NCBI RefSeq assembly: GCF_030269765.1
Contig: NZ_BSTX01000004.1
Location: 62,001 to 126,000 of the forward strand
Length of the DNA: 64,000 nt
Source: Actinorhabdospora filicis
Lineage (GTDB): Bacteria; Actinomycetota; Actinomycetes; Mycobacteriales; Micromonosporaceae
Direction: 5' to 3'
Part shown: positions 21,031 through 49,852 of the stretch, piece after piece
Layout: each line of letters starts with the position of its first letter
Position numbering within the stretch: the stretch's first letter is position 1
Notes under the pieces: generated by a model
What the model was told of the DNA's origin: nothing
The model's input: only the letters and a program-made list of their open reading frames with translations
Database searches by the model: none
Translations under genes and position numbers: made by a program

Positions 21031-21077
21031 CTCACCGCGCCTCCGGTGATCACGTCCCCACTAGCAACGGAGGCACG

Positions 21078-28984: not shown

Positions 28985-30508
28985 ATGCCTACGTACTTGT
29001 CGCCAGGCGTGTACATCGAGGAGCAGGAGGCCGGGTCGCGCCCGATCGAAGGCGTTGGCACCGCTGTCGCCGCGTTCCTCGGGTTCGCCACGCAGGGCCC
29101 CTTCAATACACCGACCTTGGTGAGCAACTGGACGCAGTACACCCAGATCTTCGGGGACTTCGCTGCGGACTGCTACCTCGGCCAGGCGGTGTACGGCTAC
29201 TTCCTCAACGGCGGCGGCAACGCCTACATCGTCCGGATCGGCGGCAACGGCCAGTCCGACGGCGCCGCGGACGCCTCCGGCCCGCAGGCGGCGCTCGGCA
29301 GCTACCGCGTGCGCGGCAAGGCGCTCCCGCCCGGCACGAACGTCACCGTCGAGATCACCGAGCCCGGCGGCGAGGACAAGCCCGCCGACCGCTTCAACGT
29401 CAAGGTCTCCCGCGACGGCCGTGTCGTCGAGACCTTCGAGAACCTGACCTTCCGCCGCGGCAAGGAGAACGTGGTCAAGGTCATCGCCGAGCAGTCGAAG
29501 ACGATCACCCTGGAGGAGACCGCCACCGTCACCACCGCCCCGGCGGCCGGGACCGTGCAGCTGGTCGAGCCCGCGGCGGCCCCGTCGCTGCCCGCGCAGG
29601 TCGCCACCGACGACTACGTCGGCGACGTGTCGGACCGTTCCGGCGTCGGCGGCCTGGAGTCGATCGAAGAGATCACCATGGTGGCCGTCCCGGACCTCAT
29701 GAGCGCCTACAACCGCGGCGCGGTCGACCTGGAGACGGTCAAGGCCGTCCAGCTCTCCGTCATCGCCCACTGCGAGGCGATGGGCAACCGCGTGGCGATC
29801 CTCGACCCGCCGCCCGGGATGAACGCCCAGCAGATCAAGGACTGGCGCGTCGACTTCGCCGGCTACGACTCGAAGTACGCCACGCTCTACTACCCGTGGA
29901 TCAAGGTCTTCGACCCGGCCAGCGGCAGCAACGAGTTCGTGCCGCCGTCCGGCCACGTCGCCGGCCTGTGGGGACGCACCGACGCCGCCCGCGGCGTCCA
30001 CAAGGCCCCGGCCAACGACGTCGTCCGCGGCGCCGTGACGCTGGAGAACACGCTGACCCGCACCGAGCAGGAGCTGCTCAACCCGCTCGGCATCAACTGC
30101 ATCCGCTCCTTCCCCGGCCGCGGTATCCGGGTATGGGGCGCGCGGACCCTGTCGAGCGACCCGGCGTGGCGCTACCTGAACGTCCGCCGCCTGTTCAACT
30201 ACCTCGAAGACTCGATTCTGCGCGGCACCCAGTGGGTCGTCTTCGAGCCGAACGACGACGCTCTCTGGTCGCGCATCCGCCGCACGATCTCGGCGTTCCT
30301 GGTCGGCGAGTGGCGCAAGGGCGCGCTGTTCGGGCTCACCCCGGACGAGGCGTTCTACGTCAAGTGCGACCGCGAGAACAACACCGCCGAGAGCATCGAC
30401 GCCGGCATGGTCATCTGCGAGATCGGCGTGGCGCCCGTGAAGCCCGCCGAGTTCGTGATCTTCCGCCTGTCGCAGTTCTCCGGCGGCACCAGCGAGGTCA
30501 GCGAGTAA
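28985..30508 (+). CDS. CIS contractile sheath protein
   Basis: 507 residues. The N-terminus MPTYLSPGVYIEEQEAG is the classic start of phage-tail and eCIS sheath proteins (P-G-V-Y-x-E-E). The region 90-225 is a variable insert facing outward. The conserved C-terminal half runs from ITMVAVPDLMSAY through RVAILDPP, PSGHVAGLWGRTDAARGVHKAPAN, INCIRSFPGRGIRVWGARTL and WRYLNVRRLFNYLEDSI to the C-terminal handshake arm VAPVKPAEFVIFRLSQ. It surrounds the tube and shortens on firing. It opens the operon; AGGAGG is at 28976. Only one sheath gene is present, unlike the three of Afp/PVC. Confidence 0.95.
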   Translation: MPTYLSPGVYIEEQEAGSRPIEGVGTAVAAFLGFATQGPFNTPTLVSNWTQYTQIFGDFAADCYLGQAVYGYFLNGGGNAYIVRIGGNGQSDGAADASGPQAALGSYRVRGKALPPGTNVTVEITEPGGEDKPADRFNVKVSRDGRVVETFENLTFRRGKENVVKVIAEQSKTITLEETATVTTAPAAGTVQLVEPAAAPSLPAQVATDDYVGDVSDRSGVGGLESIEEITMVAVPDLMSAYNRGAVDLETVKAVQLSVIAHCEAMGNRVAILDPPPGMNAQQIKDWRVDFAGYDSKYATLYYPWIKVFDPASGSNEFVPPSGHVAGLWGRTDAARGVHKAPANDVVRGAVTLENTLTRTEQELLNPLGINCIRSFPGRGIRVWGARTLSSDPAWRYLNVRRLFNYLEDSILRGTQWVVFEPNDDALWSRIRRTISAFLVGEWRKGALFGLTPDEAFYVKCDRENNTAESIDAGMVICEIGVAPVKPAEFVIFRLSQFSGGTSEVSE

Positions 30509-30536: not shown

Positions 30537-30983
30537 ATGGCTCTTCCAGACCTTGACTCCTCAGTCGGCCACAGCTTCGGGCTTGAGTTCGACGGCGTCA
30601 TGATCAAGAACATCACCGAGATCAGCGGCCTGAAGATGGAACAGGACGTCATCGATCTCAAGCAGAACACCGCCGACGGCAAGTACGTCATCAAGAAGCT
30701 GCCCGGCCGCCCCAAGGCCGGCGAGGTGACGCTGACGCGCGGTCTGACCGCCGACAACAGCTTCGAGAAGTGGGTCGAGTCGGCGCACTTCGGGAAGATG
30801 GCCGACGCCCGCAAGGGCGGCTCGATCATCGTCTTCGACTACGAGGGCATCGCGATCAAGCGGTACACGCTCACCAACGCGTGGCCGAAGAGCCTGGAAC
30901 TGAACGCCCTCAAGGCGGGCGACACCTCCGTGCTCACCGAGAAGCTCGTCATCACCTACGAAGAGATGAAGCCGGCCGCCTGA
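30537..30983 (+). CDS. CIS inner tube protein (gp19-like, first copy)
   Basis: 148 residues. MALPDLDSSVGHSFGLEFDGVMIKNITEISGLKMEQDVID is the standard start of phage T4 gp19-like tube proteins (Afp1 type), with PGRPKAGEVTLTRGLTADNSFEKWV and LVITYEEMKPA further on. Six subunits form each ring inside the sheath. Its stop TGA overlaps the ATG of the next gene (TGATG). SD sequence AAAGGTAGG lies ahead of the ATG. A second, divergent tube gene lies at 34343. Confidence 0.93.
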   Translation: MALPDLDSSVGHSFGLEFDGVMIKNITEISGLKMEQDVIDLKQNTADGKYVIKKLPGRPKAGEVTLTRGLTADNSFEKWVESAHFGKMADARKGGSIIVFDYEGIAIKRYTLTNAWPKSLELNALKAGDTSVLTEKLVITYEEMKPAA

Positions 30984-31435
30984 TGAAGCGCACGATCACC
31001 GCACCCCAGCAGGCGTTCCAAGGGGACGCCGACACGTCGATGGAGTCCGCGCCGGTCCGTGAGCCGCTGCGCACCGAGTTCGCCTTCACCCTGCCCCGCG
31101 GATACGTGGCCGCCGACGGCACCGTGCACCGGCACGGCGTCATGCGCCTGGCCACCGCCCGCGACGAGCTCGTCCCCCTGCGGGACGACCGGGTCCGGGA
31201 GAACGCGGCCTACCTCACCGTGGTGCTGCTGGCGCGCGTGATCACGTCCATCGGCGACGTCGACGACGTGCACGTGGGGGTCATCGAGAACCTCTTCGCC
31301 GCCGACCTGGCGTTCCTGCAGGACATGTACCGGCAGATCAACAGCGAAGGGCACACACGCGCGGCGGTCCGCTGCCCCGAGTGCGCGCACAACTTCGAGG
31401 TCGACCTGTCGGGCAGCCGCCTGGGGGAATCATGA
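30983..31435 (+). CDS. Tail-assembly/baseplate-type protein of eCIS with a Cys pair
   Basis: 150 residues. The core FAFTLPRGYVAADGTVHRHGVMRLATARDELVPLRDDRV, then VVLLARVITSIGD and VIENLFAADLAFLQDMYRQIN, is the pattern of the phage tail-assembly or T4 baseplate-like proteins found after tube genes in eCIS loci. Unusual for a chaperone-sized protein, it ends with VRCPECAHNFEVDLSG, a single C-x-x-C likely to bind zinc as a dimer or with partner. Translation is coupled on both sides: TGATG with the tube gene and ATGA with the next gene. Exact role uncertain. Confidence 0.75.
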   Translation: MKRTITAPQQAFQGDADTSMESAPVREPLRTEFAFTLPRGYVAADGTVHRHGVMRLATARDELVPLRDDRVRENAAYLTVVLLARVITSIGDVDDVHVGVIENLFAADLAFLQDMYRQINSEGHTRAAVRCPECAHNFEVDLSGSRLGES

Positions 31436-31590
31436 CGTACGCGACCAACCGGCTGCACGCGGAGATCGCGTACGTCGCCTACCACTTCCACTGGGGTCTC
31501 GACGAGATCCTCGACATGGAACACCGCGACCGGCTGGAGTACGTCCGGCAGATCGCGGACCTGAACAACCGGATCAACGGAGGGCGGTGA
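31432..31590 (+). CDS. DUF6760-like small eCIS protein
   Basis: 52 residues: MTYATNRLHAEIAYVAYHFH, then WGLDEILDMEHRDRLEYVRQI and ADLNNRINGGR. It is a single amphipathic helical pair with conserved His and Trp. The ATG overlaps the previous stop as ATGA. Small proteins like this (DUF6760 in my recollection) sit at the same position in other actinobacterial and cyanobacterial eCIS. Too small to be an enzyme; a tail assembly or baseplate connector is likely. Confidence 0.75.
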   Translation: MTYATNRLHAEIAYVAYHFHWGLDEILDMEHRDRLEYVRQIADLNNRINGGR

Positions 31591-31593
31591 ACC

Positions 31594-34329
31594 ATGCGGT
31601 GGCCCTGGTCGAAGAAGGAGCACACGGAGGCTGAGGCGCCGTCGCCGCCCTCCGCGCCTCTCCCCGAGATTCGCGCGCCGCGCGGCGAGTGGCGCTCGCT
31701 GCCCGCCGTCCAGCGCGTCGTGGAGAGTCACCCCACGGTCAACCCGCCGGCCGATTTCGCCGCCGGGCTGACCACGCGCCGCACCACGGCGTTCCTGGGC
31801 AGCCTCGGGCACACCGTGTCCGGCTCGGCGCCCGGGGGAGTGGTGTCGGTGCAGGCCATCCGGACCTCGGACGTGTCGGACCTGCCGGTGCTGCGGGCGC
31901 TGCCCGCCGCCGACGAGTCCCGGCCCGCGCCGATGGTGCAGCGCTCCTTCGCCCCTTCGCCGTCGGCGGTCCTGCCGATCGCGCAGCCGCCGACGGCGGG
32001 CGTGGAGACACCGGCCGCGTGGGAGCTTCCGGTGGTCTCGTCCGGTTCGGACACGGCCGCCGCCACCGACGCCCCGGCATTCGCCGACGAGCCGGTCGCG
32101 CCGACCCTCGGCGGCGACATCTCGTCGTCGGCGCCGGAGCCGTCCACGGACGCGCCGGTCATCACCCACGAGTCCGCGCCGATGCCGGACACCCCCGTGG
32201 TCACCCGTCCCGTCGGCGGGCCCGTCGGGCCGCCCATCGTGCAGCGCAGCACGACCAGCATCGACCTGCCCTCGGCGCCCGCCTCGCGCCGCCGCGGCGG
32301 CCTCGGCCCGCCCATCTCCTCCAGCGTGGACGGCGCGCTCCCCGAGCACGCCGCGCCCTCACCCGAGGTGGCCCCGACACTCGGGACGGCCGACCCTTTG
32401 GGCGGTGAGACGGTGCAGCGCGCGGTGGCCACCCCGGTCACGCCGCCGCCCGTCGACCAGCCCGTCGTGCGCTCCACCCCACCCGTCGCCGAGCCGCCCG
32501 CGGTGCAGCGCCTGGCGCTGCCGGGGACGCCGGTGTCCGCGCCGGAGAGCACCGGCCCGTCCAGCTTCACCGACTTCGTGGCGGCGGCCTCGGCCCCGTC
32601 GGTGTCCACACCGGACACTCCCTCCTCCCCGGCGGCCGAGACCGCGCCTTCGGCGCCCTCCGTGCCGGACACCTCGGCGCCGCTGACCTCGGCGAGTCCG
32701 CTGACGGTGGCGCGGGCCGTGGACACGTCCACTTCTTCGCCTTCGATGTCCGTTTCGCCGGGCTCGGACACGTCCTCGGCCACCGGCGGCCCGGACCTGC
32801 CCGACCTCACCGTCGCCCGCTCGGCCGCACCCGGTACGCCGGCCGACTCGCCCTCGGTGAGCACCTTCGCGCCGCCGCCCGGCGCGCGCACGTCCGTCCC
32901 GGACGCCCCGGCCGTGTCCGGCGAGCCGGAGTTCGGCACCTCCTCGCCCGCGACCGAGACCGCGGCGGAGGCCACCGTGGACGCTCCCACTTCCGAAGGC
33001 CCCGCCTTCTCTGAAGGCTCCGTCTCCGCCGAGAGCCCCGCCGCCGAGAGCACGCCGTCCGCCGGTGAGCCCGAGGTCGTCGCCCAGCTGATCGGCGAGC
33101 GCGGCATCACCCCGCCGTCGGCGGGCGACTCCGCTTCCTCCTCGCCGGTGGGCGAGTCCGCGGTGAGCGCCGACGGGTCCGTGGGCCCGACCGTGCAGCG
33201 CAGCGCCGACACGCAGGCGGCCTCCCCGGCGCCGCTGTCGGCCCGGTCGTTCGCGCAGGACGGCACGTCCTCGCCCGCGAGCCTCCAGCGGCTCACCCCG
33301 CCGAGTGGCCCGGCCGCGTTCGAGGCGTTCGCGCCGGGCGCCGGTCCCGCCACCTCCTCTTCCTCGCCCTCGGCGGTCTCCCCGGCCTCGCCGGTGACCT
33401 CGTCGGCACCCCTGACGGTCGCGCGCTCGGTCGCGTCGCCGTCGGCGGAGCCCGCCTCCGGCGCGGCCTCGTCCGCCTCCTTCGCGCCGCCGGTCGTGGC
33501 GCGGCTGATCGGGGACCGCGGCCTGCCCGCGTCCTCGGCGGTCGCCAACCCGATCTCCTCGGCGGTGCGCCCGAACGACGGGGGCGACGGCGGAAGCGCC
33601 GCGACCGGCGGCTCCCCCGTGGCCGCCACGAGCGACGCGACACCCGTCGTCGTCCCCGTCTCCTACGGCGGCCCGCAGCTGTCGGCGCAGACCTTCACCA
33701 CCGGTGGTTCGAACCCGGGCGGCTCGTTCACCGGTGGCAACTCCACGGCGTCCGGTGTGTTCGGCGCGGCCTCGCCGTCGTCGTCCTCGTCGCCGCAGTA
33801 CGGGCCGGCCTCGGTGCAGACCTTCAGCGGCGGCTGGACCTCGTCCGGCTCGCTCACCCTCGCCGCGGGCAGCGGTGGGGCCACCGGCAACGGCGGCTCG
33901 ATCAGCGTCCTGGGCGCGCCCTCGGCCGGTGCTTTCGGGAGTGGCGCGTTCTCCGGCGGCCCGGCCCCGGCGCCCTCGGGCGGCGCGGGTCCCCTGGTGC
34001 AGCGCGCGGCCTCGGCGCCCCCGGCGATGCCGATGGCCTCGCCCCCGCCGCCTCCTCCGCCGGTGGTGACCGAGGCTTCGCAGCCCTACTACGTCCAGCG
34101 GGCCGACGACGCCGCGCCGCCCCCCGCCGCCGACCCCCCACCGCCCGCCGCCGCCGAGCCCGCGCCCTCGGCGCCCGCCGCCCCCGCCCCCGGTGCCCCC
34201 GGGCAGGCGCAGGGAGAGGCACCCGAGGTGCTGCTCGCCAAGCTGTACGACCCGCTGCTGCGACGTCTGCGCGCCGAACTGCGCCACGACCGCGAGCGGC
34301 GGGGCATCGTGACCGACCTGTGGCACTGA
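31594..34329 (+). CDS. Very long disordered Pro/Ser/Ala-rich eCIS protein with V-Q-R tiles
   Basis: 911 residues; GGAGG precedes the ATG by 10 nt and overlaps the end of the previous gene. The first 55 residues have some order (WPWSKKEHTEAEAPSPPSAP then GEWRSLPAVQRVVESHP). The middle 800 are low-complexity S/P/A/T/V/G. Along it lie at least 8 V-Q-R and 4 V-A-R tiles (MVQRSFAPS, IVQRSTTS, TVQRAVAT, TVQRSADT, TVARSVAS, VARLIGDRG, LVQRAASA, YVQRADDA). The last 36 residues form an ordered helix with LLAKLYDPLLRRLRAELRHD and a final IVTDLWH. No membrane helix. Candidate linker, tape-like or cargo-binding protein; function unknown. Confidence 0.8.
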   Translation: MRWPWSKKEHTEAEAPSPPSAPLPEIRAPRGEWRSLPAVQRVVESHPTVNPPADFAAGLTTRRTTAFLGSLGHTVSGSAPGGVVSVQAIRTSDVSDLPVLRALPAADESRPAPMVQRSFAPSPSAVLPIAQPPTAGVETPAAWELPVVSSGSDTAAATDAPAFADEPVAPTLGGDISSSAPEPSTDAPVITHESAPMPDTPVVTRPVGGPVGPPIVQRSTTSIDLPSAPASRRRGGLGPPISSSVDGALPEHAAPSPEVAPTLGTADPLGGETVQRAVATPVTPPPVDQPVVRSTPPVAEPPAVQRLALPGTPVSAPESTGPSSFTDFVAAASAPSVSTPDTPSSPAAETAPSAPSVPDTSAPLTSASPLTVARAVDTSTSSPSMSVSPGSDTSSATGGPDLPDLTVARSAAPGTPADSPSVSTFAPPPGARTSVPDAPAVSGEPEFGTSSPATETAAEATVDAPTSEGPAFSEGSVSAESPAAESTPSAGEPEVVAQLIGERGITPPSAGDSASSSPVGESAVSADGSVGPTVQRSADTQAASPAPLSARSFAQDGTSSPASLQRLTPPSGPAAFEAFAPGAGPATSSSSPSAVSPASPVTSSAPLTVARSVASPSAEPASGAASSASFAPPVVARLIGDRGLPASSAVANPISSAVRPNDGGDGGSAATGGSPVAATSDATPVVVPVSYGGPQLSAQTFTTGGSNPGGSFTGGNSTASGVFGAASPSSSSSPQYGPASVQTFSGGWTSSGSLTLAAGSGGATGNGGSISVLGAPSAGAFGSGAFSGGPAPAPSGGAGPLVQRAASAPPAMPMASPPPPPPPVVTEASQPYYVQRADDAAPPPAADPPPPAAAEPAPSAPAAPAPGAPGQAQGEAPEVLLAKLYDPLLRRLRAELRHDRERRGIVTDLWH

Positions 34330-34342
34330 AAGGAGCCGTCCC

Positions 34343-34780
34343 ATGGCAGCGGACACCGAAGCGGTAGCGGTGAGCTTCGTCGTCAAGATCGACGACGAGA
34401 ACCTCGGCGCGTTCAACTCATGCGACGGCCTGGGCGTGGAGTTCGTGATGGAGCAGCGCGAGGAGGGCGGCAATAACGGATACGTATGGCAGCTGCCCAC
34501 CCGCATCAAGTACTCCAATGTGAAACTCAGCCGCCCGGTGACCAAGGCCTCGGCCAAGGTCACCAAATGGATCGCCAGCATGGCCAACGGCGTGAAGCGC
34601 AAGACGGCGACCATCGAGGCCCGCACGCTTGAGGGAACCGTCATCTCCACGTGGTCCCTGGTGGACGTGGTCCCGGTGCGCTGGACGGGCCCGCAGCTGT
34701 CGGCGGAGTCGCCGAAGGTCGCCACCGAGACCCTCGAACTGGCCCACCACGGTTTCCTCGCCCCGGGTTCGGGAGGCTGA
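34343..34780 (+). CDS. CIS tube-initiator protein (gp19-like, second copy)
   Basis: 145 residues; AGGAG before the ATG. VAVSFVVKIDDENLGAFNSCDGLGVEFVM is the tube-fold start, shared with Afp5 types. RIKYSNVKLSRPVTKASAKVTKWIASMA and the C-terminal LVDVVPVRWTGPQLSAESPKVATETLELAHHGF match the second tube protein that joins tube and spike. It differs clearly from the main tube (30537) and is next to the LysM hub gene, as expected for a spike-adaptor ring. Confidence 0.92.
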   Translation: MAADTEAVAVSFVVKIDDENLGAFNSCDGLGVEFVMEQREEGGNNGYVWQLPTRIKYSNVKLSRPVTKASAKVTKWIASMANGVKRKTATIEARTLEGTVISTWSLVDVVPVRWTGPQLSAESPKVATETLELAHHGFLAPGSGG

Positions 34781-34781
34781 C

Positions 34782-35537
34782 ATGTCCGGTCCGGTCACAT
34801 TCACGTCCGCGGGAGGCGGCGGCGGAGCGCCGTCCAGCCTCCAGCGCGCCTACCTCGAACTGCGCGAGCCGCCCGCCGACGGCAGCACCGCCCAGCCGGG
34901 CGGGCCCATCGGCCAGATCCACTTCCAGTTCAACCCCAAGGAACTGAGCCTGTCCAAGAACGCGAAGTGGAAGCGCGACGCGCAGCGCAACGCGAAGAAG
35001 TCCGGGCCGCCGGAGTTCACCGGCTCCGACCCGGCGAAACTGACCTTGGAGATGTTCTTCGACGCCACCGACAAGATGGACGACAAGGTGGTGAAGAACG
35101 TCGAGAAGCTGTTCAACTGCTGCGTGCCCACCGACGCCTCGCGCGCGGCCAAGAAGGGCTCCCCGCCGTGGGTGATCTTCCACTGGGGACCCATGACCAG
35201 CTTCCCGTCCTACGTCGCCTCGGTGACCGCGAAGTACACCCTCTTCACCCCCAGCGGCACCCCCGTCCGCGCGGTCTGCACGGTCAACCTGGAGGAGATC
35301 TCCGGCGAGCAGGGCGGACAGAACCCCACCTCGGGTTCCCGCACCGCCCGCCGCGCGCACATCGTCACCGCCGGGGACACCCTCCAGTCCCTGTCCTACC
35401 GGACCTACGGGAACGCGAACCTGTGGCGGGTGATCGCCGAGGCGAACGAGATCACCGACCCCATGCGCATCCCGGTCGGCACGCGGCTCCTGGTGCCCGC
35501 GGCCGACGAGCTCCCGGATGGTGACAATGGCCAATGA
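34782..35537 (+). CDS. CIS LysM-containing hub/baseplate protein (Afp7-like)
   Basis: 251 residues. N-terminal fold IGQIHFQFNPKELSLSKNAKWKRDAQRNAKK and SDPAKLTLEMFFDATDKMDD is the T4 gp53/Afp7 pattern. A LysM domain occupies the C-terminus (about 185-240: AHIVTAGDTLQSLSYRTYGNANLWRVIAEANEI). In eCIS this protein clamps tube and spike. Starts 2 nt after the tube stop and overlaps the spike gene at its 3' end, so it is translationally linked. Confidence 0.92.
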   Translation: MSGPVTFTSAGGGGGAPSSLQRAYLELREPPADGSTAQPGGPIGQIHFQFNPKELSLSKNAKWKRDAQRNAKKSGPPEFTGSDPAKLTLEMFFDATDKMDDKVVKNVEKLFNCCVPTDASRAAKKGSPPWVIFHWGPMTSFPSYVASVTAKYTLFTPSGTPVRAVCTVNLEEISGEQGGQNPTSGSRTARRAHIVTAGDTLQSLSYRTYGNANLWRVIAEANEITDPMRIPVGTRLLVPAADELPDGDNGQ

Positions 35538-37308
35538 GAGCTTCGCGAACACCCTCATCGTCGAGGTCGAAGGGACCGCCCTCCCCGCGGATGTGGCGTC
35601 CCTGCTGACCTGGGCGTGGGTGGACGCGTCACGCAACCTGCCCGACACCTGCGCGCTCCGCTTCCGCGACCCGCAGCGCGTCGCGCTGGAGAAGGGCAAG
35701 TTCAAGGTCGGCGCCAAGATCGCCGTCAAGGTCAACACCGCCGAACCCGGCGGGCCCAAGCCCCTCATGCAGGGCGAGATCACCGCCATCGAGCTCGACC
35801 TGGACGCCCACGGCAGCTTCACCGAGGTCCGCGGCCTCGACCTCGCCCACCGCCTCTACCGCGGCAAGCGCGTCGTCGCCTACCCCGACATGGGGCTCGC
35901 CGACGTCGTCCGGCAGGTGTGCGGCAAGGCCAGCGTGCCCGTGGGCACCATCGACGCCGTCTCCGGCGTCGGCGGCAAACCCAACACCCAGTTCTCCCAG
36001 GACAACGAGTCCGACTGGGAGTTCCTGTCGCGCCTGGCCGACCTGGTCGGCGCGCAGATCTCCTGCAGCGAGGGCAAACTCGACTTCAAGCTGCCCAAGC
36101 CGCCCAGCGAGGCGCCGCCGCAGTCGTCCTCGGCGACCACCGACCCGCTGGTCCTGGAGGCCAGCCGCAACCTGCTGTCCCTGCGCGCGGCCGTCACCGC
36201 CGCCGAGCAGGTCCCCAGCGTCGAGGTGCGCGGCTGGGACTTCGAGCACAAGCAGGAGATCACCGCCACCGAGACCCCGAAACTGGCCGGGACCGAGGCG
36301 TCCGGCGTGGACCCGACCGGCTGGGCCGGCAAGTTCAAGGCCCCGCCCTACCTGTCCACCTCCGCCGCCTACCACAGCCAGGGCGAGGTCAAGGCCGCCG
36401 CGAAGGCGCTCGCCGACCAGCTCGCCACCGCCGCCGCCGAACTCGACGGTGTCGCCAAGGGCAACCCGAAGCTGCGGCCCGGGCAGGCGGTCAGCCTCGC
36501 CGGCGTCGGCGATCCCTTTGTCGGCAAGTACACCCTGACCAGCACCCGCCACCTGTTCACCGAGTCCGCCGGGTACACCACGGCGTTCACCGTGTCGCAC
36601 CGGCAGGAGCGCTCGTTGTACGGCGTCATCCAGGGCGGCAAGGCGCCCGGCGGGGCCGCGACCGGGCTGATGCCCGCGATCGTGTCCGACGTCCGGGACC
36701 CCCTCAAGCTCGGCCGGGTCAAGCTGACGTTCCCGTGGCTGTCGAAGGACTTCACCTCCGGCTGGTGCCGGACGGTGCAGCTGTCGGCGGGCAAGGACCG
36801 GGGTTCGTGGCTGCTGCCCGAGGTCGGCGACGAGGTCCTGGTCGGCCGCTGCGACGGCGACATGGACACCCTGTACGTCCTGGGCGGCCTCCACAACGGC
36901 AAGGACGTCGTCCCGAAGCTGTCGGCGCCCGGCATCGACGACGGCAGCGGCGAGATCAACGTGCGCGCCCTGGTGTCCCGCAAGGGGCACCGCATCGAGC
37001 TGGTCGACGGCAAGCAGGGCGAGGGCATCCTGCTGTCCACCGGGGACAAGAAGATCTTCCTGAAGTTCGACGTGTCCGGCAAGAAGATCGAGATCGAGAG
37101 CCCCGGCGAGATCAGCGTCAAGGGCGTCGGCATCAAGATCGACGCGCAGAGCGGCAACCTGGAGATGAAGGGCGCTCAAGTCAAGATCACCGGCCAGCAG
37201 TCGGCGGAGATGACCGCCACGCAGGTCAAGGTGAACGGTTCCGGGCAGGCGGAGTTCTCCGCGGGCGGCCCGGTCACCGTCAAGGGCGCGATCGTCCGCA
37301 TCAACTAG
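35527..37308 (+). CDS. CIS VgrG-like spike protein (Afp8-like)
   Basis: 593 residues from the ATG at 35527 (MANESFANTLIVEVEG); an in-frame ATG at 35518 gives three more residues and cannot be excluded. The gp27-like hub is residues 1-370 (RNLPDTCALRFRDPQRV, GLDLAHRLYRGKRV, QDNESDWEFLSRLADLVGAQI). A gp5-type OB domain follows (AIVSDVRDPLKLGRVKLTFPWLS, SWLLPEVGDEVLVG). The C-terminal part is a beta-helix with KKIEIESPGEISVKGVGIKI repeats. It forms the trimeric spike under the tube. Overlaps the LysM gene by 11 nt. Confidence 0.93.
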   Translation: MANESFANTLIVEVEGTALPADVASLLTWAWVDASRNLPDTCALRFRDPQRVALEKGKFKVGAKIAVKVNTAEPGGPKPLMQGEITAIELDLDAHGSFTEVRGLDLAHRLYRGKRVVAYPDMGLADVVRQVCGKASVPVGTIDAVSGVGGKPNTQFSQDNESDWEFLSRLADLVGAQISCSEGKLDFKLPKPPSEAPPQSSSATTDPLVLEASRNLLSLRAAVTAAEQVPSVEVRGWDFEHKQEITATETPKLAGTEASGVDPTGWAGKFKAPPYLSTSAAYHSQGEVKAAAKALADQLATAAAELDGVAKGNPKLRPGQAVSLAGVGDPFVGKYTLTSTRHLFTESAGYTTAFTVSHRQERSLYGVIQGGKAPGGAATGLMPAIVSDVRDPLKLGRVKLTFPWLSKDFTSGWCRTVQLSAGKDRGSWLLPEVGDEVLVGRCDGDMDTLYVLGGLHNGKDVVPKLSAPGIDDGSGEINVRALVSRKGHRIELVDGKQGEGILLSTGDKKIFLKFDVSGKKIEIESPGEISVKGVGIKIDAQSGNLEMKGAQVKITGQQSAEMTATQVKVNGSGQAEFSAGGPVTVKGAIVRIN

Positions 37309-37333: not shown

Positions 37334-37618
37334 ATGCCCATGGCGGCCCGCGTCGGGGACCCCACCGGTCACCCCGGCGTCATCACCGGACCCGGCGTAC
37401 CAACCGTGCTCATCGGCGGCAAACCGGCGGCCGTGGTCGGCGACCTGCACACCTGCTCGTTCCCGCCCCCGCCGCCGCACCCCCCGACGCCCATCATCCC
37501 GCCGGGCTGCCCGACGGTCCTGATCGGCGGCAAGCCCGCCGCGCGCGTCGGCGACATGTCGGCGTGCGGAGCGCCGATCCTGCCGCCGGGCTGCCCGACC
37601 GTCATGATCGGGGGCTGA
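37334..37618 (+). CDS. PAAR-like spike tip (Afp10-like)
   Basis: 94 residues. MAARVGDPTGHPGVITGPG is the PAAR start. Two copies of PTVLIGGKPAA-x-VGD and a third PTVMIGG give the cone of short strands; the Cys and His residues (GDLHTCSFPP, DMSACGAP) are zinc ligands. It caps the VgrG spike and might carry cargo. No C-terminal toxin extension. Next start is 1 nt after its stop. Confidence 0.93.
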   Translation: MPMAARVGDPTGHPGVITGPGVPTVLIGGKPAAVVGDLHTCSFPPPPPHPPTPIIPPGCPTVLIGGKPAARVGDMSACGAPILPPGCPTVMIGG

Positions 37619-37619
37619 G

Positions 37620-38051
37620 ATGGCCGAGGAGTTCATCGGCGCGGGATGGGCCTTCCCGCTACGGACCGATGCCACCGGCTCGATGGCCCTGGTCAGCGGC
37701 GACCGGGAACTGGTGGAGGCCATCCACCTGATCCTGGCCACCGCGCCGGGCGAGCGGCCCATGCGGCCGGAGTTCGGCTGCGCCATCCACGATCTCGCCT
37801 TCGCCCCGGCGGACGCGGCCACCGCCGGGCGCATCGCCTACGAGGTGCGCATCGCGCTGGAGCGGTGGGAGCCGCGCGTGACCCTGGAGGACGTCGTCAT
37901 CGACTTCGACGAGGTCGACCAGGGACGGCTCCTCATCGAGATCATCTACTCGGTTCGCGGCAGCAACGACCCGCGCAACCTGGTGTTCCCCTTCTACATG
38001 ATCCCCTCGGAGGAGACCGCGGAGATGCCCGCACAGGACGGTGAGCGATGA
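37620..38051 (+). CDS. CIS gp25/GPW-like baseplate protein (Afp9-like)
   Basis: 143 residues. FIGAGWAFPLRTDATGSMALVSGDRELVEAIHLILATAPGERPMRPEFGCAIHDLAF is the GPW/gp25 family signature, with ALERWEPRVTLEDV in the middle. This subunit nucleates sheath on the baseplate. Its final ATGA overlaps the baseplate J start (38048). Confidence 0.93.
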   Translation: MAEEFIGAGWAFPLRTDATGSMALVSGDRELVEAIHLILATAPGERPMRPEFGCAIHDLAFAPADAATAGRIAYEVRIALERWEPRVTLEDVVIDFDEVDQGRLLIEIIYSVRGSNDPRNLVFPFYMIPSEETAEMPAQDGER

Positions 38052-39985
38052 GTCTGCCCGTACCCAACCTCGACGACCGCAGGTTCCAGGACCTCGTGGA
38101 CGAGGCGAAGCGGATGGTGCAGCAGCGCTGCCCGGAGTGGACCGACCATAACGTGTCCGACCCCGGAGTCACGCTCATCGAGACCTTCGCGATGATGGTC
38201 GACCAGCTGCTCTACCGCGTCAACCAGGTCCCCAGCCTGCACTACCTGAAGTTCCTCGACCTGATCGGCGTGAAACTGTTCCCGCCGACCGCCGCGCGCG
38301 GCGACGTCACCTACTGGCTGTCGGCGGCGCAGGAGACGGTGGTCCAGGTGCCCGCCGACTCGCAGGTGTCGACGCCGTTCACCGAGACCGAGCAGCCGGT
38401 GGTGTTCCGGACGGTCAAGGAGCTCGACATCGTCCCGTGCAGCCTGGCGCACATCCTCACCCAGTCCAATGGCGCGCGGCCGGTGGAACGCACCGGCGAC
38501 CTGCTCGCCGGGACCGGCCTGTCGTGCTTCCAGACGCAGCCGACCGTCGGCGACGCGGTGATCTTCGGGCTGTCCGACGCGGTGCCGAACTGCGCGGTCC
38601 TGCTGCGCATCGAATGCAACGTCGAAGGCGTCGGCGTCGACCCGCGCGACCCGCCCCTGGCGTGGGAGGCGTGGAACGGGCACGGGTGGTCGGCCTGCGA
38701 GGTCGACCGCGACACCACCGGCGGTTTCAACAAGGCCGGTGACGTGGTCCTGCACGTGCCCGAGACGCACGCGCCCTCCGTCGTGGACAACCGCCGCGCC
38801 GGCTGGATCCGCTGCCGCCTCGTCGCGCCCGCCGAGGGACAGCCGTTCTACCAGCAGCCCCCGCGCCTGACCTCGGCCACCGCCAGCACCATCGGCGGGA
38901 CCGTCACCGCGATCCACGCCCAGGTCGTCCGCAACGAGATCACCGGCATGTCCGAGGGCGTTCCCGGGCAGCGGTTCCCGCTCGCGCACAGCCCCGTGGT
39001 CGCCTCCGAGCAGCCGTTCAACGTGGACGTGTCCGGTGTGGACGGCTGGCAGGAGTGGACCGAGGTCACCTCCTTCGCGCGCTCCGGGCCCGCCGACAAG
39101 CACTTCACCGTCGACCGCACCTCCGGCCAGCTGCACTTCGGGCCCGCCGTCCGCGAACCCGACGGGAGCTTCCGCCACTACGGCGCCGTGCCCGCCAAGG
39201 GCACCGCGATCCGCGTCCAGGAGTACCGCACCGGCGGCGGCCGCGCCGGCAACGTCGCCCGCGGGATGCTGCGCGTGCAGCGCGACCCCGTCCCGTTCGT
39301 GTCGACGGTGACCAACCGCCGTCCCGCGACCGGCGGCGTCGACGGCGAATCGGTCGAGGACGCCTCGATCCGCGGCCCGCTGCTCCTGCGCACCCGCGAA
39401 CGCGCCGTCACCGTCGACGACTACGAGCAGCTCGCCGCCGAGGCCGCCCCCGACCTCGCGCGCGTGCGCTGCGTCCCCGTCGCCGAGGACCCCGGCGCCG
39501 TCCGCCTGCTGGTCGTGCCCTCGGTCTCCGACCCCGGCGACCTCCAGCTCAACCAGCTCGACCCCGCCGAGGACACCCTGGCGCGCATCGCGTCCTTCCT
39601 CGACGAGCGGCGCTGCCTCGGCTCGCGCATCTCCGTCGAACCCCCCTACTACCAGGGCGTCACCGTCGTCGCGCAGATGCGCGCCAAGCGCCGCAGCTCG
39701 CCCGAGGCCCTGCAGACCCGCGCCATCCGCGCGCTCTACAAGTACCTCAACCCCATCGTCGGCGGCGCCGACGGCCGCGGCTGGCCCTTCGGGCGGCCCG
39801 TGCAGTCCGGAGAGATCTTCTCGGTCCTCCAGCAGCTGCCCGGCGTCGAACTCGTCGAGGACGTCCGCCTCTTCGGCGCCGACCCCGCCACCGGCAAGCG
39901 CGGCTCCGCCGTCCAGCGCCTCGACCTGACCCCGCACGCCCTGGTGTTCTCCTACGGGCACCAGGTCCGGGTAACGGAGGAGTGA
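38048..39985 (+). CDS. CIS baseplate J-like protein (Afp11-like)
   Basis: 645 residues. MSLPVPNLDDRRFQDLVDEA then CPEWTDHNVSDPGVTLIETFA is the hallmark start of the 'putative baseplate assembly protein' family. A gp6-like core sits in the C-terminal half (AVTVDDYEQLAAEAAPDLARVRCVPV, VVPSVSDPGDLQLNQLDPAEDTLARI, SRISVEPPYYQGVTVVAQM). It forms the wedge with the tail protein I gene that starts 1 nt after its stop. About 640 residues is ordinary for eCIS; the larger two-gene wedge of Afp is represented by this one and the next. Confidence 0.92.
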   Translation: MSLPVPNLDDRRFQDLVDEAKRMVQQRCPEWTDHNVSDPGVTLIETFAMMVDQLLYRVNQVPSLHYLKFLDLIGVKLFPPTAARGDVTYWLSAAQETVVQVPADSQVSTPFTETEQPVVFRTVKELDIVPCSLAHILTQSNGARPVERTGDLLAGTGLSCFQTQPTVGDAVIFGLSDAVPNCAVLLRIECNVEGVGVDPRDPPLAWEAWNGHGWSACEVDRDTTGGFNKAGDVVLHVPETHAPSVVDNRRAGWIRCRLVAPAEGQPFYQQPPRLTSATASTIGGTVTAIHAQVVRNEITGMSEGVPGQRFPLAHSPVVASEQPFNVDVSGVDGWQEWTEVTSFARSGPADKHFTVDRTSGQLHFGPAVREPDGSFRHYGAVPAKGTAIRVQEYRTGGGRAGNVARGMLRVQRDPVPFVSTVTNRRPATGGVDGESVEDASIRGPLLLRTRERAVTVDDYEQLAAEAAPDLARVRCVPVAEDPGAVRLLVVPSVSDPGDLQLNQLDPAEDTLARIASFLDERRCLGSRISVEPPYYQGVTVVAQMRAKRRSSPEALQTRAIRALYKYLNPIVGGADGRGWPFGRPVQSGEIFSVLQQLPGVELVEDVRLFGADPATGKRGSAVQRLDLTPHALVFSYGHQVRVTEE

Positions 39986-39986
39986 C

Positions 39987-40547
39987 ATGAGAGCCGGAAT
40001 CCCGGGCCTGACGACTCCCCACCCCATCGGGGAGTCGCTGCCCGCCGTCTACGCCGAGGACGAGTTCGCCCAGCGCTTCACCGCCGCGCTCGACGACGTC
40101 CTCGCGCCCGTCTTCGCCGTCCTCGACAACTGGCCGTCCTACCTGGACCCCGCCATCGCGCCCGAGGACATCGTCGACTGGCTGGCGACCTGGGTCGCGC
40201 TGCCCATCGACGACAGCTGGAGCATGGAACGCCGCCGCGAACTGGTCGCCTCGGCCGTCGAGCTGCACCGCTGGAGCGGCACGAAGAAGGGCCTCGCCGA
40301 ACACGTCCGCCTGCTCACCGGCGGCGACGTGGAGATCACCGACAACGGCGGCTGCGTCTACTCCCGCACCGCCAACGGGCCCCTCCCCGGCACCGCCACC
40401 CCCGGCATCGAAGTCCTCGTCCGCGTCACCACCACCGCCGCCGTCGACGTCGCCCGCCTCTCGGCCACCGTCGCCGACGCCGTCCCCGCCCACGTGCCCA
40501 CCAGCATCCGCGTCGTACCCACCGGGAGGGCCTCGGTCCCCGGGTAG
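39987..40547 (+). CDS. CIS tail protein I/gp7-type wedge protein
   Basis: 186 residues, ATG at 39987. IGESLPAVYAEDEFAQRFTAALDDVLAPVFAVLDNWPSYLDPAIAPEDIVDWLATWVAL is the 'phage tail protein' (TIGR02242/P2 gpI-like) motif. ELHRWSGTKKGLAEHVRLLTGGDVEI and VTTTAAVDVARLSATVADAVPAHVP complete it. It is the last gene of the first CIS block. No fibre or tape-measure gene follows; 10 nt later a glyoxalase-fold gene begins. Confidence 0.9.
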   Translation: MRAGIPGLTTPHPIGESLPAVYAEDEFAQRFTAALDDVLAPVFAVLDNWPSYLDPAIAPEDIVDWLATWVALPIDDSWSMERRRELVASAVELHRWSGTKKGLAEHVRLLTGGDVEITDNGGCVYSRTANGPLPGTATPGIEVLVRVTTTAAVDVARLSATVADAVPAHVPTSIRVVPTGRASVPG

Positions 40548-46282: not shown

Positions 46283-46935
46283 TGATCCACGAGGTCGACG
46301 AGGCGTTGCGAACGCTCATCCGGGACGAAGCGCTGCGGGGAACCGACATCGAGGTGGCCTTCGAAGCGCCCACGAAGGACTGGGCGGCCCGGCGCAACGC
46401 GCCGACCGTGAACCTGTACCTCTACGACATCCGCGAGGACCTGCGACGCAAGTCGCGCGGCATGGTCAACGAATACAACACCGACGGGACGGTCGCCGCC
46501 CGGCACCTCCCGCCGCGATACGTCAAGCTCTCGTACCTCCTGACCGCCTGGACGCAGCGGCCCGAGGACGAGCACCGCCTGCTGTCGCTGCTCCTGCTGG
46601 GCTTCATCAAGTACGAGGCGATGCCCAAGCACGTGATGGGCGGCAGCATCGCCGAACTGGGCATGCCCGTGCCCATGACCGTCGCCCTGCCCCCGCCCGA
46701 GGACCGCGCGTTCGCCGACGTGTGGACCGCCCTCGGCGGCGAGCTGAAGCCCTCGCTGGACCTGGTCGTCAGCACGCCCGTCACCGGCGTCCGGTTCCCC
46801 GCCGCGGGTCCCGCCAAGGCCGGTGTCAGCCTGCACGCCGACGGCGACGAGCCCGTCCACCACTCACCCGTCGTGGGCACCGAAGAAGAAGAGGAACCAC
46901 GCGTGGCGATGCGCCGGGAACGGCGGGTCCCGTGA
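46282..46935 (+). CDS. DUF4255 (Afp16-like) CIS tail terminator/cap protein
   Basis: 217 residues. IHEVDEALRTLIRDEALRGTDIEVAFEAPTKDWAARRNAPTVNLYLYDIREDLRR is the DUF4255 signature; VKLSYLLTAWTQRPEDEHRLLSLLLLGFI follows. In Afp/PVC this protein caps tube and sheath and fixes length. Its stop (TGA) overlaps the GTG start of the ATPase (46932). C-terminal 30 residues are acidic/basic and variable. Confidence 0.93.
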   Translation: MIHEVDEALRTLIRDEALRGTDIEVAFEAPTKDWAARRNAPTVNLYLYDIREDLRRKSRGMVNEYNTDGTVAARHLPPRYVKLSYLLTAWTQRPEDEHRLLSLLLLGFIKYEAMPKHVMGGSIAELGMPVPMTVALPPPEDRAFADVWTALGGELKPSLDLVVSTPVTGVRFPAAGPAKAGVSLHADGDEPVHHSPVVGTEEEEEPRVAMRRERRVP

Positions 46936-48947
46936 CCGTAGCCGGACGCGCGCTGCTCCAGCGCCTCATCGCGCTGGAGCAGCGCATTCGCGCCGCGGTG
47001 GCCGCCCGGCGCGCCACCGACCCCAACCCGGACGACCCGTTCCGGGGCCTGTACCTGTCCGACGCGGCCGTCGACGAGCTCCTGGAGACCCCGCGCGACC
47101 CCTACCAGGGCGGCGACCCCGACGACACCGGCGACCCGGCCTCGCGCCTGGCGCTGCTGGCCAAGGGCGCCGGGCTGTCGGCGCTGGACGTCGACCTGCT
47201 GCTGGTCGCGCTCGCCCCCGACGTCGACAGCCGCTTCGAGCAGTTCTACGGCTACCTGAACGACGACGTCACGCGCCGCCGCGCCACGGCGGGCCTGGCG
47301 CTGCGGCTGTGTGGGTACACCGAGGCGGACGCCACGGGCCGCGCGCGGCTCGACGCGGGCGCGCCGCTGGTCCGCACCGGCCTGCTCAATGTCGACGAGC
47401 CGGACCGGCCGTTCCTGTCGCGGACCCTGCGCGTGCCCGACCGCACCGTCGCGCACCTGCTCGGCGACGACCGGGCCGATCCCGACCTCGCCGGGGTCCT
47501 CGCCGGGGACGACCTGACGCGCCTGCCGTCCACGCCCGACTCCGAGCGCCTGGCGCGCGCGGTGGCCACCGGGGTGAACCTGGTGTACCTGCGCGAACGC
47601 ACCGGCGCCAGCGGCCTGGCGTGCGCGGCGGCGGCCTTCGAGGCCAACGGCCTGAGCGTCCTGGGCGTGGACGCCGAACGGCTCGCCACGCTCTCCGAGG
47701 CGCCCCAGCTGATCCGCGCCGTCGTCCGCGAGGCCGTGCTGCGCGGCGCGGGCGTGGCCTGCGGCCCGGTCGACGGGCTCGTCCCGACGAGCATCCTGGA
47801 GGCCTTCGCGGGCGTCCCGGTGCCGCTGGTCCTCTACGGCACCAGCGGCTGGGACCCGCGCTGGAGCCAGCGCCCGCCGCTGCAGTCCGACGCGATGCCG
47901 CTCACCGCCGTTCAGCGCGCCGACATGTGGCGCGACGCCCTCCACGGACGCACCGCACCGCACGTGGACGCCGCGGCGGCCACCGCGCACTTCGTCCTGG
48001 GCGCCCTGGCGGTGCGCCGCGCGGCCGATGCCGCCGACATCGCCGCCCGCGTCGAGGACACCACCGTCGACATCGACCACCTGCGCTACGGCGCGCGCGG
48101 CCAGAACGCCGCCGGGCTCGAACGTCTCGCCCGGCGCATCGAACCCACCGTCGACTGGGCCGACCTGGTCCTGCCCGAGAACGTGCTGGCCGGCCTGAAG
48201 GAACTCGCCGCCCGCGCCCGGCACCGCGACACGGTGCTCGGCGAGTGGCGGATGCGTCCCGGCGGCGGTCGCGGTCGCGGCGTCACCGGCCTGTTCGCCG
48301 GCGACTCCGGGACCGGCAAGACGATGTCGGCCGAGGTCATCGCCACCGGGCTGGGCCTCGACCTGTACACCGTCAACCTCGCCACCGTGGTCGACAAGTA
48401 CATCGGCGAGACCGAGAAGAACCTGGAGCGCATCTTCACCGAGGCCGCCGGCGTCAACGGCGTCCTGCTCTTCGACGAGGCCGACGCGATCTTCGGCAAG
48501 CGCTCCGAGGTGCGCGACGCCCACGACCGCTACGCCAACGTGGAGAGCGCCTACCTGCTCCAGCGGATGGAGACCTTCGACGGGCTGGCGATCCTCGCCA
48601 CGAACCTCCGCGCGAACCTCGACGAGGCCTTCACGCGGCGGCTCGACGTGGTGGTCGACTTCCCCGTCCCGGACGAGAGCCTGCGCCAGCGCCTGTGGGA
48701 GACCTGCCTCGGGCCGCGCGTGCCGCGCGCGTCCGACGTCGACCTGGGTTTCCTGGCGAACAACTTCGAGCTCGCCGGCGGGCACATCAGGTCGGCGGCG
48801 GTGACCTCCGCCTACCTCGCGGCGGAGGCGGCCAGGCCCGTGGGCATGGCCGACGTCATCGGCGCCGTCGCCCGCGAGTACCGCAAGCTGGGCCGCATGT
48901 GCCTGGAACGCGAGTTCGGCCCGTACATGGAGTACGCCGCCGTCTAG
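46932..48947 (+). CDS. CIS AAA+ ATPase (Afp15-like)
   Basis: 671 residues from GTG at 46932 (GTGA overlap with DUF4255). N-terminal half is a winged-helix/helical region with a degenerate AAA-like part. The active AAA+ module is at about 430-640: Walker A LFAGDSGTGKTMSAEVIA (near 456), the pore/sensor TVVDKYIGETEKNLERIF, Walker B GVLLFDEADAIFGKR (near 512), sensor 1 GLAILATNLR and Arg finger region NLDEAFTRRLDVVVDFP. The second-half motor is typical of eCIS. It probably assists assembly or disassembly of the particle. It ends the second CIS operon. Confidence 0.93.
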   Translation: MTVAGRALLQRLIALEQRIRAAVAARRATDPNPDDPFRGLYLSDAAVDELLETPRDPYQGGDPDDTGDPASRLALLAKGAGLSALDVDLLLVALAPDVDSRFEQFYGYLNDDVTRRRATAGLALRLCGYTEADATGRARLDAGAPLVRTGLLNVDEPDRPFLSRTLRVPDRTVAHLLGDDRADPDLAGVLAGDDLTRLPSTPDSERLARAVATGVNLVYLRERTGASGLACAAAAFEANGLSVLGVDAERLATLSEAPQLIRAVVREAVLRGAGVACGPVDGLVPTSILEAFAGVPVPLVLYGTSGWDPRWSQRPPLQSDAMPLTAVQRADMWRDALHGRTAPHVDAAAATAHFVLGALAVRRAADAADIAARVEDTTVDIDHLRYGARGQNAAGLERLARRIEPTVDWADLVLPENVLAGLKELAARARHRDTVLGEWRMRPGGGRGRGVTGLFAGDSGTGKTMSAEVIATGLGLDLYTVNLATVVDKYIGETEKNLERIFTEAAGVNGVLLFDEADAIFGKRSEVRDAHDRYANVESAYLLQRMETFDGLAILATNLRANLDEAFTRRLDVVVDFPVPDESLRQRLWETCLGPRVPRASDVDLGFLANNFELAGGHIRSAAVTSAYLAAEAARPVGMADVIGAVAREYRKLGRMCLEREFGPYMEYAAV

Positions 48948-49048: not shown

Positions 49049-49852
49049 ATGCGTGGCAGCGAACACGGACACGACCACGGCTTCGAGACCGAGCACAGTT
49101 CCCGCCCCAAGGGCGACCACCTCGAAGCCACTCCCGACACCGAACTCCTCGGCCAGGCCGCCGCGGCCGGGCGCCGTGACGTCCTCGGCCCGCCCGGAAT
49201 TCTCGGCCTGCAGCGCCTGGCGGGCAACGCCGCCACCTCGGCGGTCATGGAAGAGGAACGCTCTCCCGTGCACGACGTGGTCAACTCCGGCGGCGGCAGC
49301 TCGCTGGACAACGAGACCCGCTCGGACATGGAGGGACGCTTCGGCACGTCCTTCTCCGACGTCAAGGTGCACACCGACGGCGCCGCGCACGCCTCGGCGA
49401 AGTCGGTCAACGCGCAGGCCTACACCGTGGGCAACAACATCGTCTTCCAGAGCGGCAACTACAACCCGGGCAGCGACGCCGGACGCCACATGCTCGCCCA
49501 CGAGCTCACCCACGTCGTCCAGCAGCGCAGCGGGCCCGTCGACGGCAGCGACGCCGGCGGCGGCGTGAAGGTCTCCGACCCCGGCGACCGCTTCGAGCGC
49601 GAGGCCAGCGACAACGCCGACAAGATGATGGCCGAGCCCTCGGTCCAGCGTTGCGGCGACGGCTGCGGCCACGACCACGGCGGCGGCGAGAGCGTGCAGA
49701 CCTACGTCCCCTCGGCCACGGTGCAGCGCGAGGGCGGCGAGGAAGAGGAAGAGACCGCCCAGACCTACGTGCAGCGCGAGGAAGAGGAAGAAGAGACCGC
49801 GCAGACGTACGTCCAGCGTGAGGAAGAGGAAGAGGCGCCCGAGCAGGCGTGA
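49049..49852 (+). CDS. DUF4157 eCIS core-domain protein with metallopeptidase-like HELTH and Glu-rich V-Q-R repeats
   Basis: 267 residues, ATG at 49049. The N-terminus is His-rich (EHGHDHGFETEHSS). PPGILGLQRLAGNAATSAV is the leader tile of eCIS core-domain proteins. The DUF4157 domain covers about 70-165: SSLDNETRSDMEGRFGTSFSDVKVHTD, AQAYTVGNNIVFQSGNYNP and GRHMLAHELTHVVQQRSG, with H-E-x-x-H at about 151-155. The C-tail has CGDGCGHDHGGG, then TAQTYVQREEEEE repeated twice and V-Q-R tiles like those of the 911-residue protein. DUF4157 is the most conserved eCIS-associated domain and is often fused to effectors; here no toxin domain follows. Confidence 0.9.
   Translation: MRGSEHGHDHGFETEHSSRPKGDHLEATPDTELLGQAAAAGRRDVLGPPGILGLQRLAGNAATSAVMEEERSPVHDVVNSGGGSSLDNETRSDMEGRFGTSFSDVKVHTDGAAHASAKSVNAQAYTVGNNIVFQSGNYNPGSDAGRHMLAHELTHVVQQRSGPVDGSDAGGGVKVSDPGDRFEREASDNADKMMAEPSVQRCGDGCGHDHGGGESVQTYVPSATVQREGGEEEEETAQTYVQREEEEEETAQTYVQREEEEEAPEQA

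Follow-up and report, generated by a model that had tools for sequence, protein, structure and literature searches.

Does the contractile injection system (CIS) encoded in the window, a 64,000-nucleotide stretch of Actinorhabdospora filicis DNA, have a tape-measure gene, and is that gene the 911-residue open reading frame (ORF) at 31594-34329? A tape-measure gene was called absent from the cluster of the Streptomyces coelicolor system, CISSc (PMC12237407), from the S. coelicolor and S. venezuelae clusters (Casu et al. 2023, PMC10066040) and from the S. lividans cluster (Nagakubo et al. 2023, PMC10286715). This published absence contrasts with the identical lengths of the S. coelicolor particles, which are built of 60 layers of tube and 61 of sheath and were all identical in length among those analysed (PMC12237407). 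With a probability of roughly 70%, we infer that the 911-residue protein is the tape-measure protein of a CISSc-type (subtype IId) CIS in an unusual, intrinsically disordered form. The reading was adopted because an orthologue fills the same slot in every locus that covers it, a chaperone pair with a -1 frameshift signature lies directly upstream, and the 60 rings of CISSc correspond to 0.17 nm per residue.

The coordinates, forward strand and 911-residue length given in the preliminary description were exact. The ATG at 31594 was preceded by GGAGGG and lay 3 nt after the stop of the DUF6760 gene, in keeping with the tightly spaced operon position between the DUF6760-like and second tube genes described for it. 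The GC content at the three codon positions was 0.71/0.70/0.94, so the forward frame was taken to be coding despite long antisense frames. Serine, proline, alanine, threonine and valine together made up 64% of the protein, which agreed with the composition reported earlier, and the recurring tripeptides, or tiles, were counted as 8 VQR and 4 VAR (at least 8 and 4 had been noticed) with one LQR in addition. Of the tripeptides occurring at least three times, VQR was the most strongly over-represented (8 versus 0.08 expected) and none of 300 shuffles reached 8 copies, while the 4 VAR compared with 0.5 by shuffling (p 0.007). The controls for the tiles were shuffles of the same proteins, and the statistics ignore kinship among family members. 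A longer tile, VVARLIGDR, also recurs (residues 634-645 of the 911-residue protein; L036), with a variant VVAQLIGER.

The AlphaFold2 model, calculated with a 37-sequence alignment, bore out the proposed disorder. The mean predicted local distance difference test score (pLDDT) was 48.5, the score was below 50 for 627 of the 911 residues, and a single confident helix was predicted at residues 877-910. The earlier statement that nothing but the final 36 residues looks folded was thus nearly right for the helix; it overlooked a conserved N-terminal module of approximately residues 1-90, within which the first VQR (residue 39) falls.

A search for related loci with the whole protein found nothing. 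The middle of the protein diverges too fast, and the family search consequently had to use the conserved ends. The C-terminal 49 residues matched in 21 of 151 genomes, the source genome among them; one of the loci from this search (L045) was a decoy with no CIS. Tube 2 was then used as a query that is blind to the candidate, yielding 479 relatives; the analysis covered the best 80 named loci among them. The slot between DUF6760 and tube 2 was covered in 71 of these, the other nine being without DUF6760 and at contig ends, and all 71 had an orthologue in the slot. The slot ORF was first chosen by a score that favours tiles and then checked as the longest forward frame: in 71 of 71 loci the longest forward frame was the candidate and ended in the helix pattern, which allows D in place of E, as in 14 of the slot ORFs. 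The genera represented were Phytomonospora, Stackebrandtia, Glycomyces, Actinokineospora, Amycolatopsis, Saccharothrix, Lentzea, Micromonospora, Nocardia, Planotetraspora and Streptomyces. Loci L026-L044, picked by the C-terminus, partly duplicate L054-L133 (for example L026 and L054) and are not independent support. The S. coelicolor tube initiator (Cis1b) matched in 198 of 392 Streptomyces genomes, and among 20 loci hand-picked from these the C-terminal profile matched in all 20, while an ORF ended directly before tube 2 in 19. In the twentieth (L179), an extra tube 2-like copy preceded tube 2 and the frame of the candidate was broken; in L176 the frame was apparently shifted part-way.

Within the family only the N-terminal module of about 90 residues and the C-terminal helix were conserved. 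Net charge was not, being -34 in the window and +50 and +45 in the CISSc-type orthologues. Tile statistics were based on 91 proteins, to which the broken L179 did not contribute and of which six were dropped (L176, apparently shifted; L130-L133 and L180, start uncertain), leaving 85, 83 of them non-redundant, with lengths of 557-1373 residues (median 876). In the middle regions, defined as the protein minus the first 110 and last 50 residues, there were 632 VQR compared with 13.7 by shuffling (maximum 25 in 100 shuffles), an enrichment of about 46-fold. VAR (184 versus 64) and VSR (172 versus 34) were also in excess, and VTR, VGR, VPR and VER were not enriched over the shuffles. VQR was encoded by 40 codon variants across the family, which fits selection on the protein and speaks against a DNA repeat as the origin of the tiles, a possibility that was rejected. 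Periodic tiles matching the ring spacing were likewise rejected, the spacing being as irregular as random placement, and the apparent peaks at periods of 36-40 were attributed to the exponential distribution of the spacings.

The gene upstream of DUF6760 encodes a 150-residue protein that matched the PHROG_508 'tail assembly chaperone' family in all 36 members aligned (E 6.6e-6 for the window, 7.5e-7 at best); the Pfam Mu gp41 model matched one of the 36, below the cut-off, and the AlphaFold2 model of the protein (mean pLDDT 53.8) was too poor for a fold comparison. DUF6760 overlaps the chaperone gene in the -1 frame, and 6 of its 28 members scanned matched P2 GpE weakly. At the junction, GGGGGAATC(A/G)TGAC was invariant, including the wobble bases of the chaperone frame, in all 31 rows compared (the window and 30 of the 71 loci). 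The CGCCT preceding GGGGGAATC was nearly invariant and the wobble bases farther upstream varied. Of 74 distinct junctions (108 loci), 73 were GGGGGAA and the remaining one (L082) was GGGGGGA. An alternative reason for this conservation would be that the G run is kept as a strong Shine-Dalgarno sequence. In L120, L121 and L122 the chaperone stops at a TAG or TAA directly after GGGGGAA, and no DUF6760 start codon was found from 13 codons upstream to 9 codons downstream of the junction, so that in these three loci a -1 frameshift best accounts for DUF6760 production. In the SEA-PHAGES set, about 1000 phage chaperone genes contain GGGGGAA, known as the 'fivetwo' motif (PMC10274946), which was also reported for corynephage phi16 (PMC5506516).

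On sequence grounds, the two genes upstream of the candidate look like a tail-assembly-chaperone pair with a putative -1 frameshift. In lambda-type phages such a pair, with its -1 frameshift, serves the tape-measure protein, and the lambda G-type chaperone binds many sites on the tape. In the gene order of phage P2, sheath-tube-E-E'-T-U-D, the candidate falls at the tape-measure gene T. It lies directly downstream of the pair and is the largest gene of the block from the sheath to the gpI-like baseplate gene, with 911 residues compared with 645 for gpJ and 596 for VgrG. Since all other genes of this block have an assignment, there is no second tape-measure candidate in it, and the remark that no tape measure exists elsewhere was upheld to that extent. 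No phage relatives of tube 2 were found at E 0.01, and the only phage match of the chaperone was judged to be chance. As a separate observation, Deinococcus (L200:9339-13946) and Paenibacillus (L201:10340-11938) have two small genes that by eye resemble the chaperone pair, followed directly by tube 2 and then by a long frame, which in Deinococcus includes an eCIS_core domain.

The S. coelicolor particle allowed the length of the protein to be compared with that of a tube. The published atomic models span SCO4243-4248, SCO4252-4253 and SCO4260, SCO4248 being the tube-initiator homologue, and by position SCO4251, SCO4250 and SCO4249 are the chaperone, DUF6760 and the candidate, respectively. Two Streptomyces genomes with Cis1b 100% identical over 135 residues have orthologues of 1357 and 1378 residues with 20 and 21 VQR. 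Upstream of the sheath, one of these loci encodes an AAA ATPase, two ricin-lectin proteins, a 243-residue eCIS_core protein and a 956-residue protein without a Pfam match, an arrangement similar to the one published for SCO4242-4260 and Sle1/Sle2. With a tube rise of 38.50 Å per ring (PMC10066040), 60 rings of 3.85 nm give 231 nm, or 0.168-0.170 nm per residue for 1357-1378 residues, a single data point that might be chance. A value of 0.156 nm per residue was quoted as reasonable for corynephage phi16 (PMC5506516).

Several observations weigh against the tape-measure reading, 1) AlphaFold2 predicted no long helix or coiled coil in the 911-residue protein, only residues 877-910 being confidently helical, in contrast to the trimeric coiled coils of those phage tape measures that have been resolved (PMC10713586), 2) the protein had no sequence match in Pfam, NCBIfam (to E 1) or the PDB chains, and thus none to a known tape-measure family there, 3) the tiles of the 83 members are irregularly spaced (median 47 residues, coefficient of variation 1.00) with no fixed period, and their number is weakly related to length (Spearman 0.37), 4) five of the 91 members, the broken L176 among them, have only 2-3 [VIL]QR, 5) Streptomyces locus L180 has the candidate and tube 2, but no match to sheath, tube 1, chaperone or DUF6760 upstream within the 7-kb stretch covered, and the distant plasmid CIS of Streptomyces sp. 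YIM 121038 (L202) has no such ORF in its slot (7693-8949), 6) SCO4251-4249, between tube 1 and tube 2, are outside the S. coelicolor atomic model, 7) the length fit rests on one locus type, and the whole-particle lengths in print depend on how they were obtained (233 nm in situ, 268 nm in the model, 295 nm in negative stain), 8) the unknown proteins given as detected by mass spectrometry of purified particles in the text of Vladimirov et al. (PMC10020575) were SCO4242, SCO4256 and SCO4251 and not SCO4249, although 28-34 tryptic peptides of 7-25 residues would be expected from a CISSc-type orthologue, and 9) deletion of the effectors SCO4256-4258 leaves the candidate gene in place and the lumens mostly empty.

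Some of these points have possible explanations. Because both the sequence match and the helical structure failed, the candidate was kept out of the known tape-measure sequence families. L202 has two sheath genes and adjoining transposase genes, and this plasmid CIS is perhaps decaying. That SCO4249 was missed for want of tryptic peptides was rejected for the CISSc-type protein, given the number expected; a scarcity of peptides may apply in part to the protein of the window, for which 13 were predicted (20% coverage). Low copy number could explain why SCO4249 was missed, since the structural protein BW3 was missed too. In the published tomograms, about 97% of wild-type particles had filled lumens, whereas the effector mutant, in which assembly still took place, had mostly empty ones (about 85%; PMC10066040). 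A tape packaged there would therefore be thin or invisible.

If the protein is a tape measure, its C-terminal helix would anchor it to the hub or tube initiator (Cis1b/Cis7), in the manner of the C-terminal tape-measure helices in phage tips. Copies of the G-type chaperone, or the tube rings, might grip the chain at the VQR/VAR tiles, and the -1 fusion (G-T type) would recruit tube subunits. The N-terminal module may mark the distal end, where the terminator would stop growth. At 0.170 nm per residue, the tube of the window would be about 155 nm long, with 40 rings.

The tiles also occur in eCIS_core proteins. The eCIS_core protein of the window has 4 VQR compared with 0.06 expected, a paralogue elsewhere in the genome also has 4, the 243-residue CISSc-type eCIS_core protein has 2, and the remaining eCIS_core frames of the genome have 0 or 1 in the stretch read. 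In S. lividans, co-elution indicated potential interactions of the eCIS_core protein Sle2 with the tube initiator SlpT2 and with the cargo Sle1 (PMC13277306). In Deinococcus taeanensis, a single 1535-residue frame combines a long P/A-rich part, eCIS_core (E 8e-14) and a related C-terminal helix, detected with E 0.0016 by a broader model and 7.6e-5 by a single-sequence search, both in a small database; the first C-terminal model found neither a Deinococcus nor a Paenibacillus helix at E<1. It is a reasonable inference that an ancestral tape-plus-core protein was split in the IId lineage. All three observations would suit a cargo-loading adaptor or tether that has no role in length, its C-terminal helix docking at the tube initiator and its VQR tiles binding eCIS_core or effectors. 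This alternative was considered unlikely, as it leaves both the upstream chaperone/frameshift pair and the uniform length of CISSc without explanation. The G-type chaperone and a tube-fold protein are the two candidate partners of the tiles. A Paenibacillus C-terminal helix is not claimed as a relative, its E value being 7.8 with the broader model. In addition, the small eCIS_core protein of the window and a paralogue at G000:C1:1420797 (L047) have a common acidic, VQR-repeat C-terminal tail of the TAQTYVQREEEE type.

The candidate could instead be an effector of the Tme type, ejected to act on a target, with disorder allowing it to pass through the tube. A precedent is the S. davawensis Tme, a nuclease effector that is related to tape measures, disordered for the most part and encoded directly upstream of the baseplate genes (PMC11126660). 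The candidate, however, has no Pfam or NCBIfam domain, eCIS_core included, only its two ends are conserved, and separate effectors were reported for the CISSc lineage, which makes this very improbable. Slightly more improbable still is a lumen-filling scaffold without a ruler role that is expelled or degraded after tube formation. Such a scaffold would be compatible with bulk disorder between conserved ends, and its removal would fit the absence of the protein from the atomic model, but the lumen density depends on the effectors SCO4256-4258. The preliminary description had offered an unconventional ruler, a lumen-filling scaffold and a cargo tether side by side; the ruler has since gained positional support from the chaperone pair, the slot and the length ratio, while the mostly empty lumens weakened the scaffold. 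A spurious or decaying frame, which the low-complexity composition and the incomplete annotation of one Streptomyces locus might suggest, is already refuted by conservation, given the codon-position GC, the synteny, the tile codon variants and the conserved ends.

The Streptomyces locus concerned is that of S. clavuligerus (L198:3753-7904, NZ_CP065235), where a 1383-residue frame is missing from the listed annotation and only its last 71 residues (WP_157849255.1) are present; the PLSDB gene table omits pseudogenes, and the original record may differ. The lack of a family match, the low complexity and the ease of mis-calling in annotation suggest why the gene was overlooked. In the Creative Commons-licensed literature of PubMed Central, no paper was found that names the candidate as a tape measure or that names DUF6760, and the sole paper using the tag SCO4249 applies it to PhoP.

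Phage tape-measure proteins include lambda gpH, P2 gpT and Mu gp42. The candidate is like them in the position of its gene, directly after a chaperone pair with a -1 signature and before GpU/hub-type genes, in its size relative to the block, in its C-terminal helix and, in the one case measurable in its family, in a ratio of about 0.17 nm per residue. It is unlike them in that no sequence homology was found, in its predicted disorder instead of a coiled coil, and in its VQR tiles. The proposed function is shared with the Afp14/Pvc14-type tape measures of extracellular CISs, which, unlike the candidate, are encoded elsewhere in their own clusters. Tape measures of this type were named as absent from Streptomyces clusters (PMC10066040). 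DUF4157, disorder and tape-measure homology occur together in the S. davawensis Tme, whose gene has a similar neighbourhood (PMC11126660). The candidate resembles Tme and other eCIS_core effectors in its location directly upstream of baseplate genes and its long disorder, in sharing VQR tiles with two eCIS_core proteins, and in the recurrence of its helix in the Deinococcus fusion, but it lacks an eCIS_core, nuclease or other domain, the eCIS_core of the window being in a separate gene. Sle1, a tape-measure-related cargo of the S. lividans SLP, belongs to the same CIS lineage; unlike the candidate, it is encoded by a separate gene upstream of the sheath and is predicted to be a coiled coil. 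Sle1 is unlikely to control length, because particles without Sle1/2 had no apparent structural defect (PMC13277306).

A more far-reaching version of the tape-measure reading can be proposed tentatively, although we would not give it even odds. The ruler of the largest actinobacterial CIS lineage would be a disordered 'tile tape' of about 560-1370 residues, on which VQR/VAR dock the frameshift-encoded chaperone, the tube rings or both; the length of a low-complexity gene would set tubes of about 95-235 nm, and the same tile would tag the eCIS_core adaptor for loading. If true, a ruler need not be a helix, the length of a CIS could evolve quickly, and injection devices could be tuned in length. 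The gene syntenic with the candidate (SCO4249 by position), the chaperone pair (SCO4251/SCO4250) and the slippery site make the question testable in a laboratory strain.

Features of the CIS gene cluster and of the 911-residue protein (positions in the window)
Feature	Position	Strand	Basis
Sheath, best PDB match 8bky (S. coelicolor CIS), E 5e-206	28985..30508	+	
Tube protein 1 (Cis1a type)	30537..30983	+	
Tail assembly chaperone, G-type, 150 residues; PHROG_508, weak Mu gp41 match	30983..31435	+	
GGGGGAA, putative -1 programmed frameshift heptamer	31423..31429	+	
DUF6760: -1-frame T-type extension of the chaperone, or separate gene from ATG at 31432	31432..31590	+	
911-residue disordered protein, tape-measure candidate	31594..34329	+	ORF, composition, tile counts, AlphaFold2
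Conserved N-terminal module, ~residues 1-90 (W..LPP-QR..HPLVNP..LT-WQ-P--LAPLGH...EPSGV)	31594..31863	+	family alignments
Disordered S/P/A/T/V/G-rich region, 12 of 13 tiles	31864..34221	+	AlphaFold2, composition
C-terminal helix, residues 877-910, kept in orthologues	34222..34323	+	AlphaFold2 and profile
Tube 2 / tube initiator (Cis1b type), best PDB match 9gtp chain a, E 6e-47	34343..34780	+	
LysM CIS_tube protein (Cis7 type, weak P2 GpU match)	34782..35537	+	
VgrG-like spike	35518..37308	+	
PAAR tip	37334..37618	+	
gp25-like baseplate	37620..38051	+	
Baseplate J (TIGR02243)	38048..39985	+	
Tail protein I (baseplate)	39987..40547	+	
Tail terminator, Pvc16_N (PF14065) match; open frame 45760-46935	46291..46785	+	
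CIS AAA ATPase, first possible start; true start probably later	46722..48947	+	
eCIS_core (DUF4157) protein, 267 residues, 4 VQR tiles	49049..49852	+	

Judged by its sequences, the cluster is a CISSc-type (IId) CIS, the sheath and tube initiator being closest to CISSc and the gene order shared. The best PDB matches, 8bky and 9gtp, are S. coelicolor CIS entries according to data-availability statements, and the CISSc structure was described as the first of subtype IId (PMC12237407). The gene order matches that of the CISSc-type loci L174 and L175, but the listings of those two contain no PAAR gene. The genes for the Pvc16 terminator, AAA ATPase and eCIS_core protein lie about 6 kb beyond protein I; the overlap with the terminator frame makes a true ATPase start downstream of 46722 probable.

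The same genome encodes another, different CIS (L194, G000:C6:74000-93900), which has sheath, tube and Pvc16 genes; there, a 2336-residue ORF without a Pfam match lies between the tube and CIS_tube-like genes and is followed by an eCIS_core frame. Elsewhere in the window, 19738-22337 and 27280-28818 encode zinc-ribbon, Ig-like and F5-8C proteins. By tblastn, these proteins resemble genes found directly after baseplate protein I in many relatives, which is the position of CisA in CISSc.

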